Assembly: GCA_021789855.1 (NCBI GenBank)
Contig: JAJYIW010000005.1
Location: forward strand, 1 to 40,650
Length of the DNA stretch: 40,650 bases
Source: Chloroflexota bacterium
GTDB taxonomy: Bacteria; Chloroflexota; Anaerolineae; Anaerolineales; Anaerolineaceae
Reading direction: 5' to 3'
Positions 5,986-23,317 of the stretch are shown one piece after another. How positions within the stretch are numbered: the first letter of the stretch is position 1; each line of letters begins with the position of its first letter. Position numbers and translations under genes: made by a program. A model generated the notes under the pieces. It was not told the DNA's origin. It made no database searches and worked only from the letters and a program-made list of their open reading frames with translations.

Positions 5986-8484
5986 TTGGCTGGAATGGAG
6001 CGTTTTACCCAAAGGGCGCGGCACGTGCTCAGTCTGGCCCATCAAGAAGCGGAACGGATGCACCAGGATAAGATAGGCACGGAGCATCTCCTTTTATCCT
6101 TGATTCAGGAAGACGGGGGGGTCGCGGGCCGTGTGCTGCGCGATCTCGGCCTGGAGGCTGACCGGGTAAAAGAAATTATTGATCGCTTAAGTGGCACTGG
6201 GAATTATCATGGAGGAAAAATTGATCTGGCCCCTGGAACGCAACAGGTGCTGGAATTTGCCATAGAAGAAGCTCGCCGCATGGGTCACCATTACATCGGA
6301 ACAGAACACCTGCTTTTGGGGTTGGTCCGGTATGAAGATGGCCTGGCGATGGACGTCTTGCGTAAACTGGGGGTGACCCCAGAGCAGATTCGCCGCCAGA
6401 CTCGCCGGGTGCTGCAAGAGAGCAGCACGACCAATACTTCTCAGCTTCCGGCGCCTGGCGGTCGGCAGGAAAAATCGCAAAAAGAGCAGGCGGCTCGCCC
6501 GAAGACTCCCCTGGTGGACCAGCTGGCGGTGGATTTGACCTCCCTGGCCGAAGAAGGGAAATTGGACCCGGTGATCGGCCGGCAGATGGAAATCGAGCGG
6601 GTGATCCAGATCCTGGCGCGGCGGACTAAAAACAACCCGGCTTTGATCGGCGAACCCGGCGTGGGCAAGACGGCGATCGTGGAGGGCCTGGCGCAGCGTA
6701 TCCTGGAAGGGGATGTGCCGGCGCCCTTATTAGATAAGCGGGTCTTGCAGTTAGACGTGGGTTCGCTGGTGGCCGGCACCATGTACCGCGGCCAATTCGA
6801 GGAGCGCTTGAAGCGCGTGATCGATGAGCTGAAATCGTCCGGCGCGATCCTGTTTATCGACGAAGTGCATATGCTGGTCGGCGCTGGAGCGGCCGGTTCG
6901 TCGGTGGACGCGGCGAATATCCTTAAGCCGGCGCTTTCGCGCGGCGAGCTGCAGGTAATTGGCGCTACCACCCTGGATGAGTACCGGAAGCATATCGAAA
7001 GCGATTCGGCTCTGGAGCGGCGTTTCCAACCGATCATCGTCAATGAGCCCACCGTTGAGGAGACCATCGAAATACTACGCGGTATCCGCAGTGCCTATGA
7101 AGAGCATCACCGCCTGATCATTTCGGACGATGCCCTGGATGCGGCGGCTCACCTCTCGGCTCGTTATGTGACCGAGCGCTTCTTGCCCGATAAGGCCATC
7201 GATCTGATCGATGAGTCTTCATCTCGGGTGCGCATGTATAAAAGCCCGGCTGCCAAGACTACCAAGGAGCTGATTAACCAGCTCCGCCAGGTGCGCCAGA
7301 ACCATGCCCTGGCGGTGGAAGATGGGCGTTATGACGATGCCCAGGAGCTGGTTGAGACTGAATCCGGGCTGGAGAACCAGCTTGAGCGCCTTCGCACCGG
7401 CTGGGATCGCAGCAACAGCCCGGTGGTGACCGCGGACGATATCGCTGAGGTGGTTTCGATGTGGACCGGCGTGCCGGTGATGCAAATTGCAGCGGAAGAA
7501 TCACAGCGCCTGCTCCAGATGGAGGATGAACTACGCAAAGCGATCATCGGCCAGGACGAAGCCATCCAGACGATCTCCAAGGCTGTACGGCGCGCCCGCG
7601 CCGGTTTGAAAGATCCTCGCCGGCCCATCGGTTCTTTTATTTTCCTGGGCCCGACAGGCGTGGGAAAGACCGAGTCGACTAAAGCCCTGGCGCGCTTCTT
7701 ATTCGGCAGCGAAGATGCGTTGATCCAGTTAGACATGTCCGAATTTATGGAACGCCATACGGTCAGCCGGCTGGTGGGGGCCCCGCCCGGGTACGTGGGT
7801 TATGAGGAAGCTGGCCAGTTGACGGAAGCTTTACGCCGCAGGCCTTATTCCATCGTGGTCTTTGACGAGGTCGAGAAAGCCCATCCTGAAGCGCACAACA
7901 TGCTCTTGCAGATCATGGAAGAGGGTCACCTGTCCGACGCTCGCGGGCGCAAGGTAGATTTCCGCAACGCCATTATTGTGATGACTTCGAATATTGGCGC
8001 GGATGTAATCAAACGCCAGACCTCGCTGGGATTTTCGCTGAAAAAAGACCAGGCAATGGAAGAGAAAGAGTCCTATGAAGAGATGCGCAAGAAACTGCTC
8101 GATTCGCTCAAGCGCGTCTTCCGCCCAGAGTTTATGAACCGGCTGGATGCGGTGGTGGTCTTCCGTGCATTGAACCAGGAAGACATCCAGAAGATTGTCA
8201 AGATCGAGCTGGACAAAGTGGCCAAGCGGCTGGAAGATCACGCGATCGTCCTGCACGCCACGCCCGAGGCGCTCGACCAGCTGGCCACCGAAGGTTACGA
8301 TCCTGAAATGGGCGCCCGGCCGTTGCGCCGGGTCATCCAACAAAAAGTGGAAGATCCGTTGTCGGATGCGCTCCTTTCCGGAACTTTCGAAGACGGTGAT
8401 TTTATCCTGGTCGATCTGAACGATAAAAAGGAAATCGAATTAAAACGGGGAGAAAAAGAAACCACGCAGCCAGAACCGGTGTAA
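5986..8484 (+). CDS. clpC: ATP-dependent Clp protease ATPase subunit ClpC
   Basis: ClpC is the hexameric AAA+ unfoldase that feeds proteins into ClpP. The 832-residue protein has two N-terminal Clp repeats (about 5-145), a first AAA module with Walker A GEPGVGKT at 222-229, a UVR-like middle segment (near 425-470) and a second AAA module with GPTGVGKT at 555-562 and the C-terminal D2-small domain. The start is TTG: GAGGAGG at 5971-5977 is eight bases before TTG 5986 but 17 bases before the first ATG at 5995. No clpP, mcsA, mcsB or ctsR is adjacent. radA follows after a hairpin. Confidence 0.95.
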
Positions 8485-8494
8485 ACTCGCTGGT

Positions 8495-8503
8495 TGATAT
8501 ATA
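8495..8503 (+). promoter_or_regulatory. Possible radA promoter
   Basis: TGATATATA is an extended -10-like sequence that overlaps a TATAAT at 8500-8505. A start near 8510 would place the first transcribed bases inside the hairpin at 8505-8538. There is no clear -35 box. Confidence 0.3.
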
Positions 8504-8504
8504 A

Positions 8505-8538
8505 TCCTGGTGGGTGCACAAAAAAGCACCCACCAGGA
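8505..8538 (+). terminator. Perfect 13-bp hairpin between clpC and radA
   Basis: TCCTGGTGGGTGC (8505-8517) pairs perfectly with GCACCCACCAGGA (8526-8538) around an A-rich 8-base loop. It starts 20 bases after the clpC stop. Only GCCTTT follows, so it is a weak intrinsic terminator. The right arm contains AGGA(G), the only ribosome-binding-like sequence ahead of radA, so the stem could also hide that site. Confidence 0.55.
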
Positions 8539-8552
8539 GCCTTTAACCTTCC

Positions 8553-9971
8553 ATGCCAAAAACACAAACTCAATACGTCTGTCAGCAGTGTGGGAAAATT
8601 TCACCCCGGCCCCTGGGCCGGTGCCCGCAATGCGGCGCATGGGGCAGCATGATAGAAGAAATCGTGGGGCCGGCTCTTTCCCATCCTACAAAAAATGTGG
8701 CCCGGGGATTGGGTGGGCGCTCGGTGCCGCTGCGCATCAACGAGATTGAAGGTTCAGCCGAAGAGCGCATGCCGTTATCGATTGGCGAGTTTGCGCGGGT
8801 GCTGGGCGGCGGAGTGGTTCCTGGCTCGATCGTCCTGGTTGGCGGCGATCCAGGCATTGGCAAGTCTACTTTATTGCTCCAGATGACCATGGCTATGGCT
8901 CCGGTGGGCAAGATCTTGTATGTTTCAGGGGAAGAGTCCGAACGCCAGATCAAGATGCGAGCGGTGCGTTTACTCCGGGAGGAAGACGGCCAGCCGCAGG
9001 CTATCCCCGAGTCGCTCTACCTGGTGACCGAGACCAACCTGAACGTCATCCTTGAGCATATTCATGACGTCCAGCCCATGCTGGTGATCATCGATTCGAT
9101 CCAGACGGTTTACCTGCCTGAGCTCGAATCCAGTGCGGGTTCCGTATCCCAGGTGCGCGAGTGCGCTTCACGGCTGCGAGAGCTGGCGAAGGCCAGCGGG
9201 ACGGCGGTTTTCCTGATCGGGCACGTGACCAAGGAAGGCACGCTGGCGGGGCCCCGGGTGTTGGAGCACATCGTCGATACGGTGTTATATCTGGAAGGCG
9301 ACCGTTTCCAGACGTACCGGCTGCTCCGCTCGGTCAAAAATCGCTTTGGCGCCACGTCGGAGGTTGGGGTGTTTGAAATGCGTGAACGCGGCATGGTAGA
9401 AATTACCAATCCCTCCGAGGCTTTCCTGGCCGAGCGCATGGTCAACGCGGCTGGCTCGGCCATCGCGGTGACCATGGAAGGGACTCGCCCGCTGCTGGTA
9501 GAGATGCAGGGGTTGACCAGCCCGACCAATTTTGGCAACCCACGGCGGACGCCTAACGGCGTGGATATTAACCGCTTGTTGCTGCTCGTGGCCGTGCTGA
9601 CGCGCCGCCTGGGTATGCACCTGGGAGAGCAAGATGTTTTCGTTAACGTGGTCGGTGGGTTACGCGTCAGCGAACCGGCGGCCGATCTGGCCATCGCCGC
9701 GGCGCTGGTGTCTTCGTTGCGTGATGTACCCTTGCGCGCCGATACGGTGTTGATTGGCGAGGTGGGCCTGTCCGGAGAGCTGCGCCTGGTGGGGCAGATG
9801 GCCAGCCGCCTGCGTGAAGCGGCCAAGCTGGGTTTTCGCACGGCCATTGTGCCGCGCCGCATCCGCCGCGTTGAGCATTGGGGCGAAGGCATCCAGGTGG
9901 TGGAAGCACGTTCGCTGCGCGAGGCGCTGTCCAGTGCATTGCTGGCTGAAGATGACGGGGTTAAGCATTAA
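8553..9971 (+). CDS. radA: DNA repair protein RadA/Sms
   Basis: RadA is a hexameric RecA-like helicase that drives branch migration in recombination. The 472-residue protein has the N-terminal zinc finger (C10, C13, C24, C27), Walker A GGDPGIGKST at about 97-106, the RadA signature KNRFG at 262-266, and a C-terminal Lon-like domain with VNVVGGLRV and GEVGLSGE. Its length is normal. No strong ribosome binding site precedes the ATG; AGGAG lies 13 bases upstream inside the hairpin. The DUF6391 gene follows after 19 bases and then holA, suggesting one transcription unit. Confidence 0.96.
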   Translation: MPKTQTQYVCQQCGKISPRPLGRCPQCGAWGSMIEEIVGPALSHPTKNVARGLGGRSVPLRINEIEGSAEERMPLSIGEFARVLGGGVVPGSIVLVGGDPGIGKSTLLLQMTMAMAPVGKILYVSGEESERQIKMRAVRLLREEDGQPQAIPESLYLVTETNLNVILEHIHDVQPMLVIIDSIQTVYLPELESSAGSVSQVRECASRLRELAKASGTAVFLIGHVTKEGTLAGPRVLEHIVDTVLYLEGDRFQTYRLLRSVKNRFGATSEVGVFEMRERGMVEITNPSEAFLAERMVNAAGSAIAVTMEGTRPLLVEMQGLTSPTNFGNPRRTPNGVDINRLLLLVAVLTRRLGMHLGEQDVFVNVVGGLRVSEPAADLAIAAALVSSLRDVPLRADTVLIGEVGLSGELRLVGQMASRLREAAKLGFRTAIVPRRIRRVEHWGEGIQVVEARSLREALSSALLAEDDGVKH

Positions 9972-9990
9972 TCATTTTATTGGAGGTGTC

Positions 9991-10509
9991 ATGGGATTAC
10001 TGGATGTGTTCTTAAATTCACCTGCACTCTTGCGTGTTCGCCGCAATCACGGCCTGGAACACGCGACCATCAATGTCCTGACCGAGCAGTTTCCAAATCT
10101 ACACCTGGCAGGTCATTCGGATATGGCTGGCTTTTGGATCATCGGGAATGTATCCACCGAGTCGTTAGCCGATGCCGTGGAGCAGGCTTTGAACCGCCTG
10201 CAATCGGGTGAACGCGACCTGGCCATCCATCCTAACTGCGGGACGAATTTTGTCACGGCAGGCGCGGCAGCCGGGTTGGCCGCCTGGCTGGTGATGTTGC
10301 CTGGTGGACGTGGCCTGCGCAACAAAATAGAACGCCTGCCGATGGTGGTCATGCTGGCTACCCTGGCAATCATGATTGCCCAGCCTTTTGGGCCGTTGCT
10401 CCAGGCAAGAGTGACCACCTCGGGAGAGCCAGGTAACCTCCAGGTGACCCAGATCAGCGCCGGGCAGCAGGGGCGCCTGCAGGCTTATCGGGTTATCACC
10501 CAGGGATAA
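9991..10509 (+). CDS. DUF6391 family membrane protein
   Basis: The 172-residue protein begins with the HGLEHATINVL segment (H20, E23, H24), continues with GHSDMAGFW and HPNCGTN (H80, C83), and then has two hydrophobic segments at about 87-104 and 117-137. This pattern matches the DUF6391 family, whose function is unknown. The spacing H-x-x-E-H resembles a metal-binding motif, but I would not call it a peptidase on that basis. GGAGGTG sits immediately upstream of the ATG at 9991. It lies between radA and holA, only 8 bases before holA. Confidence 0.75.
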   Translation: MGLLDVFLNSPALLRVRRNHGLEHATINVLTEQFPNLHLAGHSDMAGFWIIGNVSTESLADAVEQALNRLQSGERDLAIHPNCGTNFVTAGAAAGLAAWLVMLPGGRGLRNKIERLPMVVMLATLAIMIAQPFGPLLQARVTTSGEPGNLQVTQISAGQQGRLQAYRVITQG

Positions 10510-10517
10510 AGGAAAAC

Positions 10518-11627
10518 GTGCCTGAGGGAAAACCGGTCGTCTACATCTTGCATGGCGATGATGATTTTGCCATTAATCAGTTCATTGCCGAGCTGATCGG
10601 CCGGATGGGCGATCCCTCGCTGGCGAGCCTGAATCTCACCCGCCTGGACGGCCGTCTTGCCAGCGAAGATGAAATCCGCACCGCGGTGCTTTCGATGCCA
10701 TTTTTAACCGAGCGGCGATTGGTTGTCTTGACTAACCCATTGGCGAAGATGAGCGTTAAAAGTTCTCAGGCGAATGCGGGGTCGGATGAGGAAACCGATT
10801 TATCCCCAGATGAGGCGGCCAGCCAGAGCGCAATCGTTAAAAAGCAACGTGAGCATTTTGTCGCCTTACTGGACTCCTTGCCTCAAACCACAGCCCTGGT
10901 GCTGGTGATTGACGACGCGCTGGTCAGGCGAAAGGGCCAATGGGCGTGGGAAACGCTCACGCCCACCCACTGGCTGAGCCGGTGGGCGACACAGGCAGGG
11001 GGACGGGCACTGACACGCGAATTCCTCCTCCCCAGGATAGAAGATATACCAGGCTGGATTCGTAAGCAGGCCCAGGCCCAGGGAGGGCAAATTTCCCCTC
11101 AGGCGGCCCGGGCTTTGGCCGAGCACCTGGGCAATGATACCCAGTCCATTTCAATGGAAATCACCAAGCTTTTAACTTATGTTAACGGTAAGCGGACGGT
11201 GGAGGTGGAAGATGTGGAGTTGCTCACCGCGCGCCTGGGCCTGGTGAATGTGTTTAATATGGTCGATGCTTTGGCCGATCGCAATGCTCAAAAAACCTTG
11301 AAGCAGTTGACTCTTTTGTTGGAATCCAGCGAGCCCCAGCAGGTATTTGGTATGATCGTGCGCCAGTTCCGCTTACTGCTCCAGGCGCGGGAGGTGCTGG
11401 ATGAAGGGGGAGGTGAGGCGCAGATCGCGGCTGAAGTGATTGACCAAAAGGGCAAAGTAAACCCTTATGTGGCGGGGAAGCTGGTCACTCAGGCGAAGCA
11501 TTTCAGCCTGGATAGCCTGGTGGCTATTTATCGCCGCCTGCTCGATTTTGACCTGGGAATGAAAACCAGCCAGATCACGCTGGAACTGGCCATGGATACC
11601 CTGGTGGCCGAGCTGACGCAGACCTAA
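10518..11627 (+). CDS. holA: DNA polymerase III subunit delta
   Basis: HolA opens the sliding clamp as part of the clamp loader. The 369-residue protein has the family opening VYILHGDDDFAINQFIAEL, the middle segment around LAEHLGNDTQSISMEITKL and the C-terminal QVFGMIVRQFRLLLQ region. The start is GTG at 10518, with AAAGGA five bases upstream. A charged, poorly conserved insert lies near residues 80-110. The stop is 4 bases from the stop of the convergent amrS gene. Confidence 0.92.
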   Translation: MPEGKPVVYILHGDDDFAINQFIAELIGRMGDPSLASLNLTRLDGRLASEDEIRTAVLSMPFLTERRLVVLTNPLAKMSVKSSQANAGSDEETDLSPDEAASQSAIVKKQREHFVALLDSLPQTTALVLVIDDALVRRKGQWAWETLTPTHWLSRWATQAGGRALTREFLLPRIEDIPGWIRKQAQAQGGQISPQAARALAEHLGNDTQSISMEITKLLTYVNGKRTVEVEDVELLTARLGLVNVFNMVDALADRNAQKTLKQLTLLLESSEPQQVFGMIVRQFRLLLQAREVLDEGGGEAQIAAEVIDQKGKVNPYVAGKLVTQAKHFSLDSLVAIYRRLLDFDLGMKTSQITLELAMDTLVAELTQT

Positions 11628-11631
11628 AGGC

Positions 11632-12693
11632 TCAATTCCAAATGCCGGCGATGGGCGCGCCGCAATCTGGGCAGGTACCCTGGGGAGTAACCCGGTTGCT
11701 CCGGATGGTGTACCCAATGCGCGTGACCAGGCGGCTGCCGCAAGCCGGGCAGTGGGTGTCTTCCAGCGAGCCTACCCTGCCGGGAATATTGCCAGCGTAG
11801 ACGTAACGCAAGCCGGCTTCCTGGCCGATCTCGGCCGCTTGCTGGAGCATCTTGACCGTCGTAGGTGGCACGTTATCCATTTTGTAATCCGGATGAAAAG
11901 CGGTGACATGCCAGGGGATGTCGGGCGAGACGGAAACCAGGAAGCGTGCGGCTTCCCATAATTCATCCACGCTATCGTTGAAGCCGGGGATGACCAGGGT
12001 GACCACTTCGACCCATAGCCCAAGGTCATGGGCGCGCTGGATGGTATCCAGGGTGTGCTGCAAGACGCTGCCCATCTCACGGTAGCGCTTTTCCTGCATC
12101 GATTTCAGGTCCACTTTGTAGGCGCTCAGGTAAGGGCGCAGGTAAGCCAACGCCTCGGGAGTGGCGTTGCCGTTGGAGACAAAGGCGCAGCGCAGGCCGG
12201 CTTTTTGGGCCACCTTGAAGATAGCCACGGCCCATTCAGCGGTGATCAGCGGCTCATTGTAGGAAGAAGCGATGATTCTGGCGCCAACGCGCTGGCCGTA
12301 GGCTACAATCTGCTCAGGTGTGACCTTCCGGATGTAATCGATCGAGTCGGCTGCCATGGGATCGCGCAAGGCCTGGCTGGTCAGCCAGTTTTGACAAAAG
12401 CTGCAATGAAAATCACAGCCCAACATGCCAAACGTCAGGGCGATGCTGCCAGGCAGTAAATGGGCGAAAGGCTTTTTTTCAACCGGGTCAGCCTGGAGGG
12501 CCGCCACGTATCCCCATGGCGCGCGCAGTTCACCATCCCGATTGAAACGCACCTGGCAAATGCCGCGCCGTCCAGGTCGCAGGTAACAGCGATGACCGCA
12601 AGCCAGGCAACGCAGGGTGTCTTTCTCTGGAACAGGTTCAACCAGTTGACCTGGAGCCGTCATTTGATCGAGTGTATCTGCTAAATCTATCAT
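11632..12693 (-). CDS. amrS: AmmeMemoRadiSam system radical SAM enzyme
   Basis: The 353-residue protein carries the radical SAM motif CDFHCSFC (C93, C97, C100), an N-terminal cysteine cluster (C29, C32, C36, C46) and a C-terminal zinc ribbon (CPAC and CPDC). This arrangement matches AmrS, which is usually encoded near AmmeMemoRadiSam partners AMMECR1 and MEMO1; neither is in this window. The reaction is not established. GGAGGT lies four bases before the ATG at 12693. A second ATG at 12705 sits exactly six bases after a TATAAT box and could serve a leaderless message. Confidence 0.88.
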   Translation of the reverse strand: MIDLADTLDQMTAPGQLVEPVPEKDTLRCLACGHRCYLRPGRRGICQVRFNRDGELRAPWGYVAALQADPVEKKPFAHLLPGSIALTFGMLGCDFHCSFCQNWLTSQALRDPMAADSIDYIRKVTPEQIVAYGQRVGARIIASSYNEPLITAEWAVAIFKVAQKAGLRCAFVSNGNATPEALAYLRPYLSAYKVDLKSMQEKRYREMGSVLQHTLDTIQRAHDLGLWVEVVTLVIPGFNDSVDELWEAARFLVSVSPDIPWHVTAFHPDYKMDNVPPTTVKMLQQAAEIGQEAGLRYVYAGNIPGRVGSLEDTHCPACGSRLVTRIGYTIRSNRVTPQGTCPDCGAPIAGIWN

Positions 12694-12711
12694 AGATACC
12701 TCCATAAAATG

Positions 12712-12717
12712 ATTATA
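12712..12717 (-). promoter_or_regulatory. -10 box of the amrS promoter
   Basis: A perfect TATAAT is read on the minus strand. Transcription would start near 12705, either on the upstream ATG itself or 12 bases before the ATG at 12693. No good -35 box is seen. The amrS and mutS2 promoters share this 73-base divergent gap. Confidence 0.5.
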
Positions 12718-12758
12718 CGGTATCCCGCTCCCCTGGTAGGTCTCTGTCTAGCTTAAAG

Positions 12759-12769
12759 TATGATAAACT
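12759..12769 (+). promoter_or_regulatory. Possible -10 region of mutS2
   Basis: TATGAT (12759-12764) overlaps TAAACT (12764-12769); either could act as a -10 box. The second ends nine bases before the mutS2 ATG. There is no ribosome binding site and no convincing -35 box. Confidence 0.3.
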
Positions 12770-12778
12770 TTCCATGCA

Positions 12779-15232
12779 ATGGATGAGAAGACCCTGACCA
12801 TGCTGGAATTTCACAAGGTGTTGGAGCGGTTATGCAGTTATGCCGCATTCAGCGCCTCTCTGGAGCTTGGAAAAGCCCTACGCCCCAGCAGCAACTTCGA
12901 TGAAGTGCTCCTCTGGCAGGCCCAGACCCACGAGGCGAGCCAGTTGTTGGACATCAACGCCGATATCAGCGTTGGGGGAGCGCACGACATCCGCCCATTG
13001 GTTGATCTGGCCGGGCATGGCGGCGTGCTGGCGCCCAACGAGCTGCTGGATGTCAAATCGACCCTGGTGTCGGCGCGCAGCCTGGCGCGGACGTTTGAAC
13101 GCCTGGCGGCGCAATACCCTTACCTGTTTGCTTTGACGATGGGATTGCAGCCGCCTATGGGCCTGGTCGATTCTATTTCCCGGGCCATTTCGGAGCGTGG
13201 GGATATCCTGGATAGCGCCTCAGATGAGCTGACCCGGATTCGCCATGAATTAAAAGTGGCCTACGACCGGTTGATGGGCAAGCTTGAGCGGATCATTAAC
13301 GATCCGCGCATGGCGCCGGTGCTACAGGAGTCGATCATCACCCAGCGCAATGGACGGTATGTGGTGCCGTTGCGGGCAGATTTCAAAGGGCGGATCCGCT
13401 CGATCGTTCATGACCAATCGGCGTCCGGAGCGACCCTGTTCGTGGAACCCCTGGTCGTGGTCGAGTTAAACAACAGCTTACGCGAGCTGCAACTGGCAGA
13501 ACGAGATGAAGAAAGGCGCATCCTGACTGAGCTAAGCCGGGCGGTGGGGTTGCACGCCAGTGAGCTGGTAGGAATGGTCGAAGCGCTGGCCGAGCTGGAC
13601 TTGTGCCTGATGCGCGCGAAATATGCTTACGATTTACACGCAGTTGCCCCGGTTCTGGTGCCCTTCCGCCAGGTTGAGCGCCCCGCTGGTGAGGAAAAGG
13701 CCCACCCCGGCAGCACGATCCGCCTGTTCAATGCCCGCCACCCGCTGCTTGACCCGGACAGCGTGGTCCCAATTGATATCGACCTGGATGCCGAGACCTA
13801 TTCTGTGGTCATCACCGGGCCGAATACCGGCGGTAAAACCGTTACCTTGAAAACGGTCGGCTTATTTGTGCTGATGGCTCAATCGGGGATGGCTATCCCG
13901 GCCCAGTCTGGCTCGGAATTGAGCGTGTTTACGTCGGTCTACGCGGACATTGGCGACGAACAGTCCATCGAGCAGTCCCTGTCGACTTTTTCCGGCCACG
14001 TGACCAACCTGGTGCACATTCTAAAGGAGGCCGATCGTACCTCGGTGGTTCTGCTGGATGAACTGGGGGCCGGGACCGACCCTCAAGAAGGCTCGGCGCT
14101 GGCCCGGGCTGTGCTGGGCTTTTTGCTTGAGCGGCGCATCACCACCCTGGCAGCGACCCATTACCCTGAGCTGAAAGCTTACGCTCATGCCACGCGAGGG
14201 GTGGTTAATGCCAGCGTGGAGTTTGACCTGCAAACTTTGCGCCCTACTTACCACCTGACCATCGGTCTGCCCGGGCGCTCGAATGCCCTGGCGATTGCCG
14301 AGCGGCTGGGCTTGCCCGAGCCTATTATTACGGCTGCCCGTTCCACGCTCCATCCGGATGAGCTGCGCACCGAAGACTTGCTGGATGAGATCCACCGCCA
14401 GCGAGACCTGGCTCGCAAGGCGCGGGCAGAGACGGAAAAATTGCAGCATGATGTCGAGACCTTAAGGGCAGGATTGACCAGGCGTTTGGAGGCAATCGAA
14501 GATGAACGCCGGGCGATCCTGGAACGTGCGCGCCGGGAAGCTGGCGAAGAAGTGGCTGAGCTACGCAATGAGCTGGAGGAAGTCCGCCGCCAGCTCGCTC
14601 GCGCCCGCCAACCGCTGGAAGTGGTCAAGTCGCTGGATGAGCAGCTTCAAGGATTGGCCGAGGAGGCCGAAAAGCCGGTTGAGCGGAAGAGCACGGCGGT
14701 AAAGAAACCGGCGACAACCCGGCAGCCCCTGCAATTGGGAGAAAAGATCAGGCTGCGCTCCTTGAAGATGGTCGGGATCGTAACGTCATTAGGCGAAAAC
14801 GAGATTGAAGTCCAGGTCGGCGCGCTACGTGTCAGGGCGCGGCTGGCGGATGTCCAGCGGATGGATGAGGAGGAGGAAGAACTCGCTCCCGCGGCTGCTA
14901 CACCGCCAGCCGGAACGCCATCTGGCGGCCCTTCCCGCAATACGCCGGTGCTGGGAACCGGATCGAGCCTTTTTTCCCCTTCGCCAGGAATTGAACTTGA
15001 CCTACGCGGCCAACGCGCGGAAGACGCGCTGGATGCCCTCGACCGCTACCTGGAGTCGGCTTTCCTGGCTGGCCTGCCGTATGTTCGCATCATCCATGGA
15101 AAGGGTACGGGCCGCCTCCGGCAGGTGGTGCGCGAAGCATTGCGGCTCTCTCCCCATGTCAAAAAGTTTGAGTCGGGCCAGGAAAGTGAAGGCGGCGACG
15201 GCGTCACGGTGGCCCGCCTGCCCGTGGATTAA
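12779..15232 (+). CDS. mutS2: Endonuclease MutS2
   Basis: MutS2 acts against recombination intermediates and, in some species, on collided ribosomes; it is not the mismatch-repair MutS. The 817-residue protein has the N-terminal core and clamp, an ATPase with Walker A GPNTGGKT at 347-354 and LLDELGAGTDP, a charged coiled coil at about 540-630, a KOW-like segment (LGEKIRLRSLKMVG) and a C-terminal Smr nuclease domain with LDLRG and HGKGTG. A Pro/Gly/Thr-rich linker precedes Smr. Length and domain order are normal. It is convergent with recN across a 239-base gap. Confidence 0.96.
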   Translation: MDEKTLTMLEFHKVLERLCSYAAFSASLELGKALRPSSNFDEVLLWQAQTHEASQLLDINADISVGGAHDIRPLVDLAGHGGVLAPNELLDVKSTLVSARSLARTFERLAAQYPYLFALTMGLQPPMGLVDSISRAISERGDILDSASDELTRIRHELKVAYDRLMGKLERIINDPRMAPVLQESIITQRNGRYVVPLRADFKGRIRSIVHDQSASGATLFVEPLVVVELNNSLRELQLAERDEERRILTELSRAVGLHASELVGMVEALAELDLCLMRAKYAYDLHAVAPVLVPFRQVERPAGEEKAHPGSTIRLFNARHPLLDPDSVVPIDIDLDAETYSVVITGPNTGGKTVTLKTVGLFVLMAQSGMAIPAQSGSELSVFTSVYADIGDEQSIEQSLSTFSGHVTNLVHILKEADRTSVVLLDELGAGTDPQEGSALARAVLGFLLERRITTLAATHYPELKAYAHATRGVVNASVEFDLQTLRPTYHLTIGLPGRSNALAIAERLGLPEPIITAARSTLHPDELRTEDLLDEIHRQRDLARKARAETEKLQHDVETLRAGLTRRLEAIEDERRAILERARREAGEEVAELRNELEEVRRQLARARQPLEVVKSLDEQLQGLAEEAEKPVERKSTAVKKPATTRQPLQLGEKIRLRSLKMVGIVTSLGENEIEVQVGALRVRARLADVQRMDEEEEELAPAAATPPAGTPSGGPSRNTPVLGTGSSLFSPSPGIELDLRGQRAEDALDALDRYLESAFLAGLPYVRIIHGKGTGRLRQVVREALRLSPHVKKFESGQESEGGDGVTVARLPVD

Positions 15233-15471: not shown

Positions 15472-17196
15472 TTAATGGTGGCTGGCCGCGACTGTTTGCA
15501 AAATTTCGTCTGCAGAGCGCAACGTGCCTTCCGAAATTCCCCCTAGCATAAGCGCCAATTCACGCCGGCGGGCCTCTCCCTGCAGGGCTTCGACGTGGGT
15601 GGAGGTGCGCCCACCGGCGACCAGCTTGGCTACCCGGAAATGCTGGCCGCCGTGGGCTGCCAGTTGGGGCAGGTGGGTGATGCAAAGCACCTGGTGTTCG
15701 TGTGAAAGTTGCCACAGTTTCTTGCCGACGATCAGACCCACTCGCCCCCCAATCCCCTGGTCAATTTCGTCGAATATGAGGGTCGAGATCGTATCTGCCC
15801 GTGCGAGGACATTTTTCAAGGCCAGCATCAAGCGCGAGGTCTCGCCGCCCGAGGCAATCTTAACCAGGGGTTTCAGTCCTTCACCCGGGTTAGGCGCGAC
15901 CATAAATTCGACCTGGTCAAGCCCGTTGGCGTCGAAGGCCACCCGCCGCCCATCGCTTAACAGCACACCGTTCGGATTTGATTTTGTTTGAAAGTCGATA
16001 CTGAAGCGTGCGCCGGCCATGCTCAGGTCGGCCAGCTCGGTTTCAATGGCTTTTTCCATCGCACCAGCAGCTTTGCGCCGTTGAGCGGATAACGCCTGGC
16101 CCTGGGCCGACAAGCGCTCGAGCCATTGGCTTTCTTCAGCTTCCAGCTTGCTGATCCGTTCACCGGCGTGGGTAATGGTCTCGAGCTGCTCTTTGGCTTC
16201 GACCGCAAAGGACAGGATGGCCTCAATCGATCCGCCATATTTGCGCTTCAGGGTATGGATCAGATCCAGGCGTTCCTCGATTTGGTCCAGGCGCTGGGGG
16301 TTGAATTCGACGCCTTCCACATAGCTACGCAGATCGCGAGTGAGCTCGCTGAGGCCATCGGCGGCGGTTTCAGCTTGTTGGTATAAATCCGCTAAAGAGG
16401 GATCGATCCGGTACAGCCCGTTCAGGGTATGCAGGAGCTGCCCGACCTGATCGGTGATGGAAGGCGCTTCAGGGGTGCCTTCATCCAGCAACTGAAGCGC
16501 TTGTTGGGAAAGGGAAGACAGGTTTTCCGCATTGGCCAGGCGGGTCCGATCGGTGCGCAGCTCCTCCTCTTCGCCTGATCGCAGGTGGGCGTTGTCAATA
16601 TCCTCGATCTGGAATTTGAGCAGGTCAATTCGCCGGTTGGCATCCTGCTCGGCGGCGCGGATAGCAGTCAAATCGCGCCGGGTGGCCTGTAAAGCATGGT
16701 AGGTTGACGTGTAGGCAGCCAGCAATGCCTCATCGTTGGCGTACCGGTCGAGCAGGCCGAGGTGATGGCGGTTGTCGAGTAAGGAGAGGTGTTCGGATTG
16801 CCCATGGATATCGACCAGGTAACCACCCAGTTCTTTTAGCAGGCTAACGTTGACACTATGCCCATTAACCCGGGCGGTCGTGCGTCCTTCGCGGCGTAAT
16901 TCACGCCCCAAAACCAGGTAGCCAGGATCGTCCACGAGGTCCTCGCGCTCGAGGATGGCCATGACTGGCGCCCGGATGGCATCGGTCAGGCGGAAGGTGG
17001 CCTCTACGCTGGCTCGATCGGCTCCGCTGCGGATGAAGGTCAGATCCGATCGCCCGCCTAAAACGGTTTCGATGGCATCTAAAATGATCGACTTACCCGC
17101 TCCCGTCTCGCCGGTAAAGGTGATCAGCCCGCTGCCGAACTCAAGCTCCAGGAGCGGGATGATAGCAAAATTCTCGATACGCAGTTCGGTGAGCAT
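15472..17196 (-). CDS. recN: DNA repair protein RecN
   Basis: RecN is an SMC-like ATPase that gathers broken DNA ends. The 574-residue protein has Walker A GETGAGKS at 29-36, long central coiled-coil arms, the ABC-type signature ASGGETSRLMLALK and Walker B LIFDEIDQGIGG, then the switch segment CITHLPQLAA. Size and order are normal. It is the last gene of the ssb-to-recN operon, 17 bases after the B-box membrane protein. Confidence 0.96.
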   Translation of the reverse strand: MLTELRIENFAIIPLLELEFGSGLITFTGETGAGKSIILDAIETVLGGRSDLTFIRSGADRASVEATFRLTDAIRAPVMAILEREDLVDDPGYLVLGRELRREGRTTARVNGHSVNVSLLKELGGYLVDIHGQSEHLSLLDNRHHLGLLDRYANDEALLAAYTSTYHALQATRRDLTAIRAAEQDANRRIDLLKFQIEDIDNAHLRSGEEEELRTDRTRLANAENLSSLSQQALQLLDEGTPEAPSITDQVGQLLHTLNGLYRIDPSLADLYQQAETAADGLSELTRDLRSYVEGVEFNPQRLDQIEERLDLIHTLKRKYGGSIEAILSFAVEAKEQLETITHAGERISKLEAEESQWLERLSAQGQALSAQRRKAAGAMEKAIETELADLSMAGARFSIDFQTKSNPNGVLLSDGRRVAFDANGLDQVEFMVAPNPGEGLKPLVKIASGGETSRLMLALKNVLARADTISTLIFDEIDQGIGGRVGLIVGKKLWQLSHEHQVLCITHLPQLAAHGGQHFRVAKLVAGGRTSTHVEALQGEARRRELALMLGGISEGTLRSADEILQTVAASHH

Positions 17197-17213: not shown

Positions 17214-17759
17214 TCAGATGGAAAGCGAAATGCCGCGCAAGCGGTAGTAGACGGTCGAAACCACCAGAAAAGTATACAGCACCTGGAAGGCCAGGGACAA
17301 CAGGACAGAGAGGTTTGCCCCCCCTGCCGGGTTACTGAAGAAGATACCTAAGAGCAAGATCAGAATACGTGGCAGGCTTCCCAAGCCAGCCGCCGTAGCA
17401 GATACCTGGTAAAGGAGCTTACTGCGGTGCTTGCGGGTGACCATGCGGATTCCCTCTGCGATAATGACGCCGGCCACTGGGGCGATAAAAATGGTAAAAA
17501 AGCCCAGCGCCCCGGCGATTATGCTGCCAATAAACCCTAAAACCCCGGCGATTAAGATGGCGATGGGATAATCGATCCACTCGGCTGTGTCGAACGTCTT
17601 TTGTTGAAGGCGCACGCATTCTTTGCAGCGGTAACCGGTGGGCGTCAGGACTGCACATTCCGAGCAGATGGGCTTATTACAACGGTTGCAGCGCAAGTTG
17701 GTTTCGCGCTGGGGATGGTTGGCGCAATACATCACTGGGGTTGAATTATCATCGGTCAT
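17214..17759 (-). CDS. B-box zinc-binding membrane protein
   Basis: The 181-residue protein begins with a B-box-type zinc module (C12, H15, C24, C27, C32, C35, and a further C45/C48 pair). It is followed by about four hydrophobic segments between residues 63 and 172. Similar bacterial proteins are annotated as B-box zinc finger or rhomboid-like zinc proteins without known function. The ATG at 17759 overlaps the nadK stop in an ATGA, so the genes are translationally coupled. The frame is open further upstream inside nadK, but the family-like N-terminus starts here. The zinc domain could tether partners at the membrane; that is inference. Confidence 0.82.
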   Translation of the reverse strand: MTDDNSTPVMYCANHPQRETNLRCNRCNKPICSECAVLTPTGYRCKECVRLQQKTFDTAEWIDYPIAILIAGVLGFIGSIIAGALGFFTIFIAPVAGVIIAEGIRMVTRKHRSKLLYQVSATAAGLGSLPRILILLLGIFFSNPAGGANLSVLLSLAFQVLYTFLVVSTVYYRLRGISLSI

Positions 17760-18628
17760 CGAACAGCACCCGTGAGTGGATTTTGTTGCAGGTGGGGGGT
17801 AAGATTGCGATAAAAATAGTCTGGACCCTGAAAACGGATCATATTCAACGAATGGCTGTTGGCGGTCACATGGACCTGGTCGCCGTCTACCATGGGAACA
17901 GGCGCCTGGCCATCCACGCTCAACACGGCTTCGTGGCTGGTGTTGACGGTAATGGTAACCGAAGACCCTTCTGATAGGACGATAGCCCGATCCCACGAGA
18001 TATGAGATGCTACCGGGATGATCAGGATGTTACGCAGTTCAGGGGGCAAGATAGGCCCGCCGGCGGCCAGAGAATAGCCGGTTGAGCCGGTGGCGGTTGA
18101 AGCGATCAGGCCATCGGCCACGAAGAGGGTGAGATAATAGCCGTCCACGTAGGCGGTAAGCTGGACCGGCCGGACGATCTGGCCCCGGCAGGCGATCACC
18201 TCGTTGAGTACATCCCAGGAGCCTAGAAGGGTATCCTGGCGAAACAACTCGGCGCGCAGCATCATGCGGTTTTCCAGGCGATAATCGCCATTAAGCAGGC
18301 GGGGGATATATTCTTGCCATTCGTTACGTTTGATTTCGTAAAGAAAGCCGAAATGTCCCATGTTGATCCCCATGAGAGGGATGTTTCGTTTTGCGCAAAG
18401 ATGGCCTGCCCGGAGCATGGTGCCATCTCCGCCCACGGCGATCACGGTATCAAATTCGCCCTGAGCAACCCGTTGTACGAGAGCTTCATCCTGAATCTGG
18501 CCTTGCTCAACCCACAGGCCGCCTTGCCTGAGCCTATCAACCACCAGGCTGCCCTCAATAGCTGCATCTTCCAGGGTGGGATGGGTGAGAACGGCGATGC
18601 TCGCCGGTGGTGGATTCGAATAAACCAT
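17756..18628 (-). CDS. nadK: NAD kinase
   Basis: NadK phosphorylates NAD to NADP. The 290-residue protein has the catalytic GGDGT at 66-70, the GINMGHFGFL segment, and ATGSTGYSLAAGGPI in the C-terminal beta-sandwich domain. In many bacteria nadK lies next to recN, as here with one gene between. The ATG at 18628 is seven bases after a perfect TATAAT, so besides operon read-through it probably has a leaderless transcript of its own. Confidence 0.96.
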   Translation of the reverse strand: MVYSNPPPASIAVLTHPTLEDAAIEGSLVVDRLRQGGLWVEQGQIQDEALVQRVAQGEFDTVIAVGGDGTMLRAGHLCAKRNIPLMGINMGHFGFLYEIKRNEWQEYIPRLLNGDYRLENRMMLRAELFRQDTLLGSWDVLNEVIACRGQIVRPVQLTAYVDGYYLTLFVADGLIASTATGSTGYSLAAGGPILPPELRNILIIPVASHISWDRAIVLSEGSSVTITVNTSHEAVLSVDGQAPVPMVDGDQVHVTANSHSLNMIRFQGPDYFYRNLTPHLQQNPLTGAVR

Positions 18629-18648: not shown

Positions 18649-19161
18649 TTAAACCAGGCGCTGATCACAATGCTGCCGGTAGCCACAATGAGAACAACGC
18701 CCGGGTTGGTCGTGCGACCGGTCGGCATCTCCGCGCCTTTCTTGGGCGCGCACCTGGGCTAACAGGTCGATTAACGCTGATTCAAGCTCGGGGGTGTAAT
18801 CCACGGCGAAGGTCTGGTTGGCATAATGTAAAATGCCGTAAGGCGGGCGTTTCCCCAGGGTGTGTTCAACCAGGCGGCAATAGGCAGCCAGTTGGAAAAT
18901 GTGGTTATCGTAAGGCTCAGAGGGCGCGCGGCCGGATTTGACTTCAACCGGGATGGTAAAGCCGGCCTGTTCCACCAGGTAATCCGGCTTTCCGGTCAGG
19001 TTCAATGTGGGATCGAACAGGGGCTTTTCAACCGCCCCCCAGGCACGCGTGTCGGCATAGATGATACGTCCCCCTGGCAAGCCGGTGGCCTTTCGTTGCC
19101 GGCTGGCCTGCCAGAAAAGGACCAACGCTGCCAGGAGCAGAAGGAGAGCCAGGATGTCCAT
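18649..19161 (-). CDS. Cas4-like PD-(D/E)XK nuclease, C-terminal half, membrane-anchored
   Basis: The 170-residue protein starts with one transmembrane helix (about 3-17), followed by the nuclease core of the Cas4/RecB superfamily: D60 in GKPDYLV, E73 and K75 in VEVKSG, and Q90 to Y94 in QLAAY. The C-terminus has CSHC and a further cysteine (C156, C159, C165), which match the last three Fe-S ligands of Cas4. The first cysteine and the motif-I histidine are missing here and are found in the preceding gene. The ATG overlaps the upstream stop as TAATG, so the two halves are coupled. There are no cas1, cas2 or repeats nearby, so this is not a CRISPR gene. It should cut or trim DNA at the membrane if paired with its partner. 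Confidence 0.75.
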   Translation of the reverse strand: MDILALLLLLAALVLFWQASRQRKATGLPGGRIIYADTRAWGAVEKPLFDPTLNLTGKPDYLVEQAGFTIPVEVKSGRAPSEPYDNHIFQLAAYCRLVEHTLGKRPPYGILHYANQTFAVDYTPELESALIDLLAQVRAQERRGDADRSHDQPGRCSHCGYRQHCDQRLV

Positions 19162-19400
19162 TAATGGATCACCTGCTGTGTGCCATAGGCTGCCAGGGAG
19201 ATCAGGGCTGCCAGCAATAGCAGCCAGGCAGCCCCGCGCAGTAACCTGGCAAACCAAACCCTCCGGCCATGCTGGCGGTGCAATACACTTCCTGCGGCTA
19301 ACTCGGCCTGGTTGCTGGATTCGATCCCCTGGTTTTGATACCACCAGGCGCGCTGACAGTAGACGAACAAGCCTATTTCAGAGGCCCGGATGTTCCGCAT
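19161..19400 (-). CDS. Cas4-like nuclease, N-terminal half, membrane-anchored
   Basis: The 79-residue protein begins RASEIGLFVYCQRAWWYQ, the typical Cas4 opening, with C15 as the first Fe-S cysteine and H41 in GSVLH as the motif-I histidine. It ends in one transmembrane helix (about 52-72). In ordinary Cas4 the sequence would continue into the nuclease core, but here translation stops and the core is made from the next gene. The first 23 bases overlap the translin gene. The two helices, at the end of this chain and the start of the next, could form a hairpin that brings the halves together. A simple frameshift is unlikely because both breaks fall at a membrane helix and the junction is a coupled TAATG. 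Confidence 0.72.
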   Translation of the reverse strand: MRNIRASEIGLFVYCQRAWWYQNQGIESSNQAELAAGSVLHRQHGRRVWFARLLRGAAWLLLLAALISLAAYGTQQVIH

Positions 19401-20052
19401 GATCCGAATTAATGGCTTCCAGGTCCGTGAGGCGGGCTGCCAGGGATGCCAGGCTGTTTTCCAATTGCTGCTCCCTCAGGCTGATGGTCAGGTCGCCGCG
19501 GGTGCGCTCCAGAATGCCACGCACCAGGTCTGTCTGGCGGCGCAGGCCAGAGGTGATGGCATCTGGATAATCCAGGGTCACCAGCATGGCATAGATGTCA
19601 TCCATATAGCCCAGCAAGCGTTCCGCCTCTTGAGAATATCCCTGTCTCAAAATATCCAGGCAGCGACGCCGCAATTCACCCACTACTTCCGCCAGGCCGT
19701 TGAGATAGGTGGATTCAACCATCCTCAGGTCTTCCGGAGATGGCAACGGCCGGTTTTCGATCAGGGTGCAGGTGATGGTCGCCTCAACAAACTCCTTCAA
19801 TGCGTCCTGGGTATAGCCGGCGTAATACAAGTCGGGATAATCTTTTAACCCGGCCTGGATGCTGGAGACCAACTGGTGAGCCTCATCGAGGTGCTGTTGG
19901 GCCAGGTCTGACTGATCGCGGTGGATCGCGCGGATCGCATTGGCTGAATGGCGTGTGACCAGGCGAGCCTGGGCCAGGGCCTGGTCACGTGCGGCGGTGC
20001 GGGCGTCAAACGACAGGCGGATCTTTTCGATAATCGGTTCTAAGTTCTGCAT
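19378..20052 (-). CDS. Translin family protein
   Basis: The 224-residue protein is largely helical and shows translin/TRAX signatures in order: ALKEFVEATI (E87, E90), YLNGLAEVVGELRRRCLD (116-133) and the C-terminal DLVRGILERTRGDLT (175-189). Eukaryotic translin and TRAX form an octameric RNA-binding ribonuclease (C3PO), in which glutamates of the EFVEA-type helix are catalytic in TRAX; both glutamates are kept here. Bacterial members are rare and their role is unknown. It starts 3 bases after the DUF3467 gene and its end overlaps the Cas4-like half by 23 bases, a strong sign of joint expression. Confidence 0.85.
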   Translation of the reverse strand: MQNLEPIIEKIRLSFDARTAARDQALAQARLVTRHSANAIRAIHRDQSDLAQQHLDEAHQLVSSIQAGLKDYPDLYYAGYTQDALKEFVEATITCTLIENRPLPSPEDLRMVESTYLNGLAEVVGELRRRCLDILRQGYSQEAERLLGYMDDIYAMLVTLDYPDAITSGLRRQTDLVRGILERTRGDLTISLREQQLENSLASLAARLTDLEAINSDHAEHPGL

Positions 20053-20055
20053 AGG

Positions 20056-20382
20056 TCATTTTTCTGTGGGCGGGTCCGGCGGCCGGATGCCCCGGAAGAG
20101 GTCGCTGGCGAGCGAGGTATCTCCAGGCAGGCGGATCTCGCCAAAGCTGGCTTCATAACGATTAAGGTTTTCCTGGAACGCACTCAAAAACAGCTTGGCG
20201 CTCAAGGGGGTCATCGCCACCCGTGCGCAGACCCGGGCAGACGCATCACCGGGCAAAAAATGAGCAAAATCCAACACGAGCTCAGTAGGCGAATGGGAGA
20301 TACGCACGAGATTTGCATACGTGACTGGCAAGTCTGCTGGAACCTGGAAGGGCGGTACGGAAGGCGGTTGAGCAGAGGTCAT
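20056..20382 (-). CDS. DUF3467 family protein
   Basis: The 108-residue protein has the DUF3467 pattern: TYANLVRISHSPTELVLDF, then MTPLSAKLFLSAFQENLNRYE and FGEI. The function of the family is unknown. A proline-rich head and tail flank the domain. It lies 11 bases after ssb and 3 bases before translin. Confidence 0.82.
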   Translation of the reverse strand: MTSAQPPSVPPFQVPADLPVTYANLVRISHSPTELVLDFAHFLPGDASARVCARVAMTPLSAKLFLSAFQENLNRYEASFGEIRLPGDTSLASDLFRGIRPPDPPTEK

Positions 20383-20393
20383 GGCTTTTACGC

Positions 20394-20831
20394 CTAGAAG
20401 GGAATCACGTCCTCATCCACATTGGGCCGGCCGCCGAATCCCTCGCCTTCTTCCGTGCTGCTGCTGCCAGACTCACCACCTTCGCCCCGGCTGGAAAGGA
20501 AGCGGACGGTACTGGCCATGACATCGTAGGATGCCCCAGCGGTTCCATCCTTTTTGGTGTAGGTCTTGGGGCCTCCCGTTGCCAGGTCAGGGGAAAGACG
20601 ACCTTCGATCAGCACTTTGCTGCCTTTTTTCAGATACTGGTTGCAGGATTCAGCCTGCTTGCCCCAGACTGAGATCCGGAACCAGGCAGTTTCCTTTACG
20701 GTCTGCCCGTTGTTGGACGTATATTGGCGCGAGCTGGCTACTGAAAAGCTGGTGACTGCCTGCCCATTAGGCGAATAGCGCATTTCGGGATCGCGGCCCA
20801 GGTTTCCCACGATGATGATGGTGTGCCACAT
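20394..20831 (-). CDS. ssb: Single-stranded DNA-binding protein
   Basis: The 145-residue protein has an OB-fold domain (about 1-108) with the family opening IIVGNLGRDPEMRYSPNGQAV and WFRISVWGKQAE, then a Gly/Ser/Glu-rich tail. The tip is DEDVIPF, close to the DDIPF consensus that recruits repair enzymes, with Val in place of one Asp. AAAGGA precedes the ATG by eight bases. It is the first gene of the ssb-to-recN operon. Confidence 0.95.
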   Translation of the reverse strand: MWHTIIIVGNLGRDPEMRYSPNGQAVTSFSVASSRQYTSNNGQTVKETAWFRISVWGKQAESCNQYLKKGSKVLIEGRLSPDLATGGPKTYTKKDGTAGASYDVMASTVRFLSSRGEGGESGSSSTEEGEGFGGRPNVDEDVIPF

Positions 20832-22585: not shown

Positions 22586-23317
22586 TTGCCCTCTCCTTTG
22601 CTTTCGATTGTAATCCCGGCTCATAATGAGGCGCTTCGCTTACCTGGAACTTTAGAGAAGATCGCCGCGTTCACTGCCCGGCAATCCTATCCGATCGAAG
22701 TCCTGGTAGTGGAGAATGGCAGCCAGGATAACACGGCTGAGCTGGCGCGCTCATTTCAGGCGGCCATGCCTTACCTGCAGGTTTTGCACGAGGCCCAGGC
22801 GGGAAAAGGCCTGGCTGTGCGCCGGGGAATGCTTGAGGCGAGTGGGGAATATCGTTTTATCTGCGACGCGGACCTGTCTATGCCTATTGAAGAGGTCAAC
22901 CGCTTTATCCCGCCGGCGTTGCCCGATATGGATGTGGCGATCGCCTCTCGTGAAGCGCCAGGGGCGGTGCGTTACGATGAGCCTCCTTTTCGCCACCTGA
23001 CCGGCCGGGTGTTTAACGCCGTGGTGCGGGCGATGGCCTTACCTGGTCTGCAGGATACCCAATGCGGCTTTAAATGTTTCCGGGCCGAGGTGGCCCAGGA
23101 AGTGTTCCAACAGCAGACCTTGAACGGCTGGGCTTTTGACGTGGAGGTGCTCTACATCGCCCGGCGATGGGGTTACCGGGTGGTCGAAATACCCATCCAC
23201 TGGTATTACAATGCCCACAGCCAGGTGCATGTGTTCAAGGACACCTGGAGGATGCTCCATGAGCTGGTGACTATCCGGCGCAATGCGGCGCAGGGTAAAT
23301 ATGACCGCCAGGTTTGA
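22586..23317 (+). CDS. Glycosyltransferase family 2, dolichyl/polyprenyl-phosphate glucosyltransferase-like
   Basis: The 243-residue protein has a GT-A fold: LSIVIPAHNE at 7-16, VVENGSQDNT, GKGLAVRRGML and the DXD-type DADLSMPIEEV, followed by DTQCGFKCF and an acidic GWAFDVE. This matches Alg5-like enzymes that move glucose or mannose from a nucleotide sugar to a lipid phosphate at the membrane. No ATG is available; the only plausible start is TTG at 22586, since a TGA lies four codons upstream. The end overlaps rnhB by 17 bases. Confidence 0.85.
   Translation: MPSPLLSIVIPAHNEALRLPGTLEKIAAFTARQSYPIEVLVVENGSQDNTAELARSFQAAMPYLQVLHEAQAGKGLAVRRGMLEASGEYRFICDADLSMPIEEVNRFIPPALPDMDVAIASREAPGAVRYDEPPFRHLTGRVFNAVVRAMALPGLQDTQCGFKCFRAEVAQEVFQQQTLNGWAFDVEVLYIARRWGYRVVEIPIHWYYNAHSQVHVFKDTWRMLHELVTIRRNAAQGKYDRQV

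Follow-up and report, generated by a model that had tools for sequence, protein, structure and literature searches.

The window analysed here, a stretch of 40,650 nucleotides from a Chloroflexota bacterium of the Anaerolineaceae (assembly GCA_021789855.1, contig JAJYIW010000005.1), corresponds to contig C60 of a 3.4-Mb draft genome and contains a tightly packed run of minus-strand genes that extends from SSB to RecN (Table 1). Spacing within the run ranges from a gap of 20 bp at the widest to an overlap of 23 bp between the translin gene and the gene that we call cas4N. The latter overlaps cas4C by a single base pair (TAATG, where the stop TAA and the start ATG meet at position 19161), with the two genes in different frames. 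Across the loci we compared, DUF3467 keeps its position between SSB and translin, NAD kinase follows cas4C in many families and the place of RecN in the run is also conserved.

Table 1. Features of the SSB-to-RecN run and of the plasmid-borne Cas4 pairs (window positions, unless a locus label precedes them)
Feature	Position	Strand	Basis
SSB gene (single-stranded DNA-binding protein), first of the run	20394..20831	-	PF00436 E 2.4e-30
DUF3467 gene (PF11950)	20056..20382	-	PF11950 E 3.8e-18; 3 bp upstream of translin
Translin-superfamily gene, TRAX type, 224 aa	19378..20052	-	PF01997, NF011160 and AfTRAX matches; quartet E87/E90/E122/E126
Overlap of 23 bp, translin 3' end with cas4N 5' end	19378..19400	-	Gene coordinates; similar overlaps in linked pairs
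cas4N, N-terminal half of a Cas4-family nuclease, 79 aa	19161..19400	-	FeS Cys15, Trp19, GxxxHxxH (His41, His44), C-terminal TM; weak Cas4 N-terminal matches
cas4C, C-terminal half of the nuclease, 170 aa	18649..19161	-	N-terminal TM, GxPD60, E73xK75, Q90xxxY94, FeS Cys156/159/165; TIGR00372
NAD kinase gene	17756..18628	-	PF20143/PF01513; 20 bp downstream of cas4C
B-box-type zinc-binding membrane protein	17214..17759	-	PF00643 E 2.9e-5; likely start 17759 (ORF inspection), 4-bp overlap with NAD kinase
RecN (SMC-like DNA repair ATPase), last of the run	15472..17196	-	PF02463/PF13476
Split Cas4 pairs on plasmids	L226 2142-2923; L227 2176-2914; L229 3624-4396		P. borealis, B. subtilis, S. acidiphila

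The genome has three SSB genes (the others at G000 C5:4203 and C129:3443), among which the copy in the run is the weakest match to PF00436. A structural model for DUF3467 reached medium confidence (pLDDT 82.5, pTM 0.59) and contains three strands and a long helix; searched against the PDB it gave no significant match (best E 0.18), and the top non-significant ones include the single-strand nucleic-acid binders MoSub1, MRP1/2, PC4 and Pur-alpha. Adjoining the run is a plus-strand cluster of DNA-maintenance genes (ClpC, RadA, HolA and MutS2, window positions 5986-15232), and elsewhere in the window an RNase HII gene and the end of a glycosyltransferase gene overlap by 35 bp (23283-23317).

The translin gene matches Pfam PF01997 with 35 bits (cut-off 25.9, E 1.9e-8) and NCBIfam NF011160 with an E value of 3.5e-75, yet falls under the strict cut-off of the latter model. 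The NCBIfam models NF011156-NF011161, which describe bacterial and archaeal translins, are named ‘haloacid dehalogenase superfamily protein’, an apparent misannotation. When a family profile built from 13 homologues of the phylum was run against solved structures, the best relative was Archaeoglobus fulgidus TRAX (AfTRAX, 3zc1/3zc0; E about 1e-39), with a full-length match over profile positions 9-200, along with Nanoarchaeum NEQ131 (E 6e-16) and human TRAX (3pja, E 3e-8). In the alignment with AfTRAX, the ExxE pair (E87 and E90) and the GE glutamate (E126) are identical and the catalytic Asp, which entry 3zc0 carries as Ala, is replaced by Glu (E122). Of 92 distinct homologues, 91 keep all four residues and one has a gap. 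We take the catalytic quartet of human TRAX to be E126, E129, D193 and E197. E197 is also named in PMC9246224, according to which translins proper retain just the last acidic residue of the quartet. Because the window protein keeps the full acidic quartet, whereas translins proper keep only the last residue, we class it as TRAX-type and read it, from its sequence, as a bacterial TRAX-type protein with a predicted intact acidic active site. The first-pass annotation had named this gene a translin with two TRAX-like catalytic glutamates, fused by a 23-base overlap to a Cas4-like first half: the identity is borne out by the profile search and the overlap is exact to the base, the glutamates are kept but were undercounted, and the genes overlap rather than being fused.

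As such, the protein is a new member of a family already known, since bacterial translins were reported before (Gupta et al. 2012, as cited in PMC5424206 and PMC3834833). It shares full-length homology, the ExxE pair and the GE glutamate with archaeal C3PO (3zc0, 3zc1), and in both cases there is one TRAX-type gene per genome, Archaea having one paralogue that is more Trax-like (PMC9246224); the window protein differs in being bacterial, in carrying Glu for the catalytic Asp and in its SSB-Cas4 operon. The pattern of the active site is also shared with the eukaryotic translin-TRAX complex (C3PO), from which the bacterial case differs in that a separate inactive translin paralogue was not found here and the RNAi context is absent.

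Downstream of translin, two short genes divide the hallmarks of one nuclease between them. cas4N encodes the first FeS cysteine, within YCxRAWWY, and the histidine motif GxxxHxxH, followed by a C-terminal transmembrane (TM) segment, and cas4C begins with a TM segment and continues with GxPDY, ExK, QxxxY and CxxCx5C, thus contributing the D/E-x-K/Q nuclease motif and the other three FeS cysteines. Together they hold every RecB motif of Cas4 (His41 from cas4N; D60, E73/K75 and Q90/Y94 from cas4C) and, at the residue level, its four-Cys FeS site (C15 plus C156, C159 and C165). All 110 distinct cas4N sequences keep C15 and H41, apart from one gap at C15, and all 126 distinct cas4C sequences keep the catalytic and Cys residues, apart from two gaps at Cys positions. 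cas4C matches TIGR00372 (cas4) slightly below its cut-off (E 2e-17); cas4N alone, as a sequence query, did not retrieve solved Cas4 structures. The two are the only Cas4 matches in the genome, and a PADLOC scan of the pair named only Cas4-type or other PD-(D/E)XK nuclease domains. We set aside dN/dS of the cas4 halves, as their synonymous sites are near saturation and the NAD kinase control behaves alike.

A TM-like segment is present in 109 of 110 cas4N and 104 of 110 cas4C sequences from pairs, with a flanking charge of +2.8 before the cas4N segment and +3.1 after that of cas4C, a positive-inside pattern that would place the soluble parts of both halves in the cytoplasm. In another family of the phylum (L206-L213), an acidic stretch inserted between the Cys and His motifs goes with a longer cas4N, which is mostly still a separate gene with a C-terminal TM segment.

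To model the two halves jointly, the stop codon was read through in a locus where both share a frame, and separate alignment rows were added for each half. The AF2 model of this chain has a mean pLDDT of 93.8 and a pTM of 0.88. In it, helix 37-80 holds the catalytic-His motif and continues straight into the membrane segment, and helix 86-114 forms the second membrane segment, after which the RecB core begins. A VIA-align search of the PDB placed Cas4 7mi4_A first (Z 20.8, rmsd 2.0 A, 177 aligned residues, 27% identity), in an alignment that spans model residues 2-257 and hence both halves of a Cas4 fold. The read-through residue that links the two chains in the model is probably not made in the cell, and some rows for the N half are misaligned in the TM region; given this artificial linker, the model speaks for cas4N and cas4C completing one Cas4 fold when joined, not for their binding each other. 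cas4N and cas4C are two halves of one Cas4-family nuclease, whose chain is broken after the catalytic-His helix and before the first core strand, with one TM helix per half at the break.

The halves travel together. Among 396 genomes of the class, the cas4N family is present in 264 and strong cas4C in 261; 255 genomes have both, 9 only the N half, 6 only the C half and 126 neither (Fisher p 1e-83, a value that ignores shared ancestry, as genome counts are not phylogenetically independent). They are not always adjacent: whole, unrelated and intact genes intervene between them in many families, and those found between the halves, or between translin and cas4N, resemble L,D-transpeptidase, HEAT-like, phosphoribosyltransferase-like and toxin-antitoxin-like pair genes (names by inspection). 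In many families the gene that recurs between the halves is an intact YkuD-like L,D-transpeptidase (L064, L081, L086-L088, L095, L096, L105 and L107), and toxin-antitoxin-like pairs occupy the same place in L099 (4344-4942) and L100 (4312-4943).

We gathered the surroundings of these genes in three ways. Among loci taken by translin alone, SSB-DUF3467-translin-cas4N-cas4C occurs complete or in part in the window's own family, elsewhere in its class and, once, in a genome from beyond the class. In 60 larger regions, chosen partly for linkage, more than 20 families of the class show the arrangement SSB-DUF3467-translin-cas4N-(other gene)-cas4C-NADK-RecN, whole or in part. A less biased sample comprised 80 named loci picked by similarity to cas4C only, all labelled Chloroflexota save one ‘uncultured bacterium’; where at least 3.5 kb lay upstream (n=61), that stretch contained cas4N in 50 cases and translin in 44. 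Linked translin and cas4N genes (98 pairs) overlap by 1-50 bp in 62 cases and lie within 100 bp in another 23. The SSB-to-RecN neighbourhood is thus ancestral and not local, in line with the conserved setting that the first-pass annotation needed beyond close relatives; the membrane location it raised as a possibility also held as a prediction, each Cas4 half carrying one TM segment with positive-inside flanks. Its suggestion of a joint nucleic-acid processing complex of translin and nuclease is not established by the distribution of the genes. Translin, counted by family alignment (PF01997, which finds 38 of 301 genomes, is too weak for phylum-wide counts), occurs in 355 of the 396 class genomes compared with 261 for strong cas4C and is found without Cas4 in many, and at least six genomes have cas4C with no detected translin. 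Translin and Cas4 are unlinked in several families. Within the order to which the window belongs, translin and cas4 have drifted 8-10 kb or further from each other (L111, L112), and another family of the class has translin and both halves dispersed, as in the single-contig genome G503, where translin maps to 3.16 Mb, whereas cas4C lies at 3.21 Mb and cas4N at 3.64 Mb. The obligate partnership in these data is that of cas4N with cas4C, not that of translin with Cas4.

Split pairs also occur outside the Chloroflexota. A tblastn search of plasmids with cas4C found Paludisphaera borealis and three Bacillus subtilis plasmids, and the Paludisphaera protein, used as the next query, found Singulisphaera acidiphila. 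In P. borealis, S. acidiphila and one of the B. subtilis plasmids the gene just upstream is a cas4N with the Cys, the His motif and a TM segment; it is annotated only as ‘hypothetical protein’ and either overlaps cas4C by 4 bp or lies 4 bp away. An upstream ORF in Planctomyces SH-PL62 was rejected as a cas4N and left uncounted, as it seems to be the beginning of cas4C read in a different frame. When sequences from all three phyla are aligned, precisely this set of residues, Cys, His, D, E, K, Q, Y and CxxC..C, is among the positions that do not vary, so that, judged by shared motifs, a predicted two-part Cas4 is present in at least three bacterial phyla. The plasmid copies lie near DNA methylases, one of them also with a MobF relaxase, and another context holds a helicase, a thermonuclease and a T4P/Flp-type pilus cluster. 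We rejected a viral origin: viral contigs contained no relative of cas4C, and phages contained no relative of translin or of the Bacillus cas4C.

From these observations we consider it likely that the run (SSB, DUF3467, translin, cas4N, cas4C, NAD kinase, the B-box protein and RecN) is an operon for housekeeping-type DNA metabolism that encodes a two-subunit, membrane-anchored Cas4 and a TRAX-type protein, its biological role being read only from the neighbours. The two TM helices would pair as a hairpin and hold the nuclease on the cytoplasmic face of the membrane, where the active site would be shared, with the His from one chain and the Asp, Glu, Lys and Gln from the other; this site and the FeS cluster of four cysteines (1+3) would form only when both proteins meet. 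Less surely, the nuclease may share a pathway with SSB and RecN and trim DNA ends or single strands at the membrane, whether the DNA is incoming, excised or damaged, and the TRAX protein could be a soluble nuclease in its own right within this regulon, breaking down fragments of RNA or single-stranded DNA, instead of a fixed subunit of the Cas4 nuclease. As to substrate, the neighbours in Chloroflexota (ClpC, RadA, HolA, MutS2, RecN, SSB and RNase HII) point to genome maintenance, and the contexts of the plasmid copies point to DNA entry or exclusion.

Several other readings were weighed. Two short genes that overlap by 1 bp in different frames could be a single broken one, be it a frameshifted pseudogene, a sequencing error or a programmed frameshift or read-through that yields one chain, and six named loci do have both halves in the same frame with a single stop between them. 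One locus, L212 (2321-3310), is a natural single ORF of 330 aa with two mid-chain TM segments; as both its catalytic Asp (GKPT) and its His motif are gone, its sequence seems degenerate and it appears to be the odd one out, and none of the 62 among the 80 named loci that carry both halves has a fused ORF. Against breakage stand the occurrence of the split in hundreds of genomes, the unrelated whole genes between the halves, their location on different contigs in some genomes or 435 kb apart in G503, and the retention of all catalytic residues; these intervening genes, unlinked halves and invariant residues largely rule out a broken Cas4, which we hold to be highly improbable. Equally improbable in our view is a CRISPR-adaptation Cas4 that became split, even though the best family names for the pair (TIGR00372, PADLOC) are Cas4. 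Cas1 was not detected in the genome, so that the Cas1/Cas2 company of a CRISPR-associated Cas4 is wanting, the neighbours are housekeeping DNA genes, and the genome's sole Cas4 is the split pair, whereas the Cas4 of CRISPR systems is one soluble chain.

The membrane nuclease might also serve in defence or gate the uptake of DNA, by restricting phage, plasmid or transforming DNA that comes in; this fits the membrane anchoring and the methylases, relaxase and pilus genes beside the plasmid copies, and has a precedent in a Synechococcus Cas4-like nuclease that lowers plasmid transfer or maintenance (PMC10653904). In Chloroflexota, however, the pair is near-universal in many families and sits among SSB, NAD kinase and RecN, not in defence islands, and PADLOC recognized nothing beyond nuclease domains; we regard a defence role as possible but rather unlikely. 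Translin, for its part, could be a conserved operon neighbour with no physical partnership, co-transcribed but acting alone (for example, as a bacterial C3PO-like RNase that clears RNA fragments), with the overlap merely coupling translation. Its presence in about 100 more class genomes than cas4C, the loss of its linkage to cas4 both in the window's order and in a further family, and overlaps that are mostly 1-23 bp, the size seen in ordinary operons, speak for this, whereas the linkage of translin, cas4N and cas4C has lasted longer than expected by chance, across more than 20 families and as far as one genome beyond the class; on balance we lean slightly towards translin acting on its own. 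A partner in the regulon is the best reading of translin, and a complex with Cas4 is possible, albeit unsupported by co-occurrence. The most far-reaching version, in which an obligate two-subunit, membrane-embedded FeS nuclease with its active site and cluster across the subunit interface is widespread in Bacteria (on Chloroflexota chromosomes and on Bacillota and Planctomycetota plasmids) and in Chloroflexota forms one membrane nucleic-acid processing machine with a bacterial TRAX ring and SSB, we consider doubtful as a whole.

Compared with known systems, the joined halves match the whole fold of the Cas4 proteins of CRISPR adaptation (7mi4, Cas4/Cas1; 8d3l, type I-C) and have the FeS and RecB motifs in common with them. 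The difference is that the latter are soluble, work with Cas1-Cas2 and keep the Cas4 domain in one chain, whereas here there are two chains, predicted to be membrane-anchored, in a genome without Cas1. Outside CRISPR, the Argonaute-associated Cas4 family protein ACE1 (9iab/9iac) has a similar fold (Z 10.7 to the model), but is a single-chain entry with an Argonaute partner, unlike the two-gene Cas4. A solo-Cas4 that is not CRISPR-linked and is monophyletic in many Chloroflexi has been described (Hudaiberdiev et al. 2017, PMC5704561), and cas4C may be what was counted there; in that text we found neither a split or membrane form of Cas4 nor the N-terminal half, membranes coming up at one unrelated place. 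A literature search limited largely to openly available papers, in which absence is not proof, returned no paper combining Cas4 with translin and no description of a split, membrane-anchored, transmembrane or two-subunit Cas4. Because the nuclease domain lies on two genes in nearly all the pairs seen, and not on a single polypeptide, the pair is a new variant of Cas4 and not a plain member of the family, with its motifs and fold in place.

If this enzyme cuts DNA only once two membrane proteins come together, with one active site and probably one FeS cluster shared between them, that would be an unusual way to keep DNA cutting local and checked. The Cas4 family, in which the solo members are without a settled function, would gain a membrane-bound branch, and the copies on B. 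subtilis plasmids open the question to direct testing in a standard laboratory organism. Conserved linkage with a TRAX-type gene, in turn, provides a concrete genomic setting in which to seek the function of bacterial translins.
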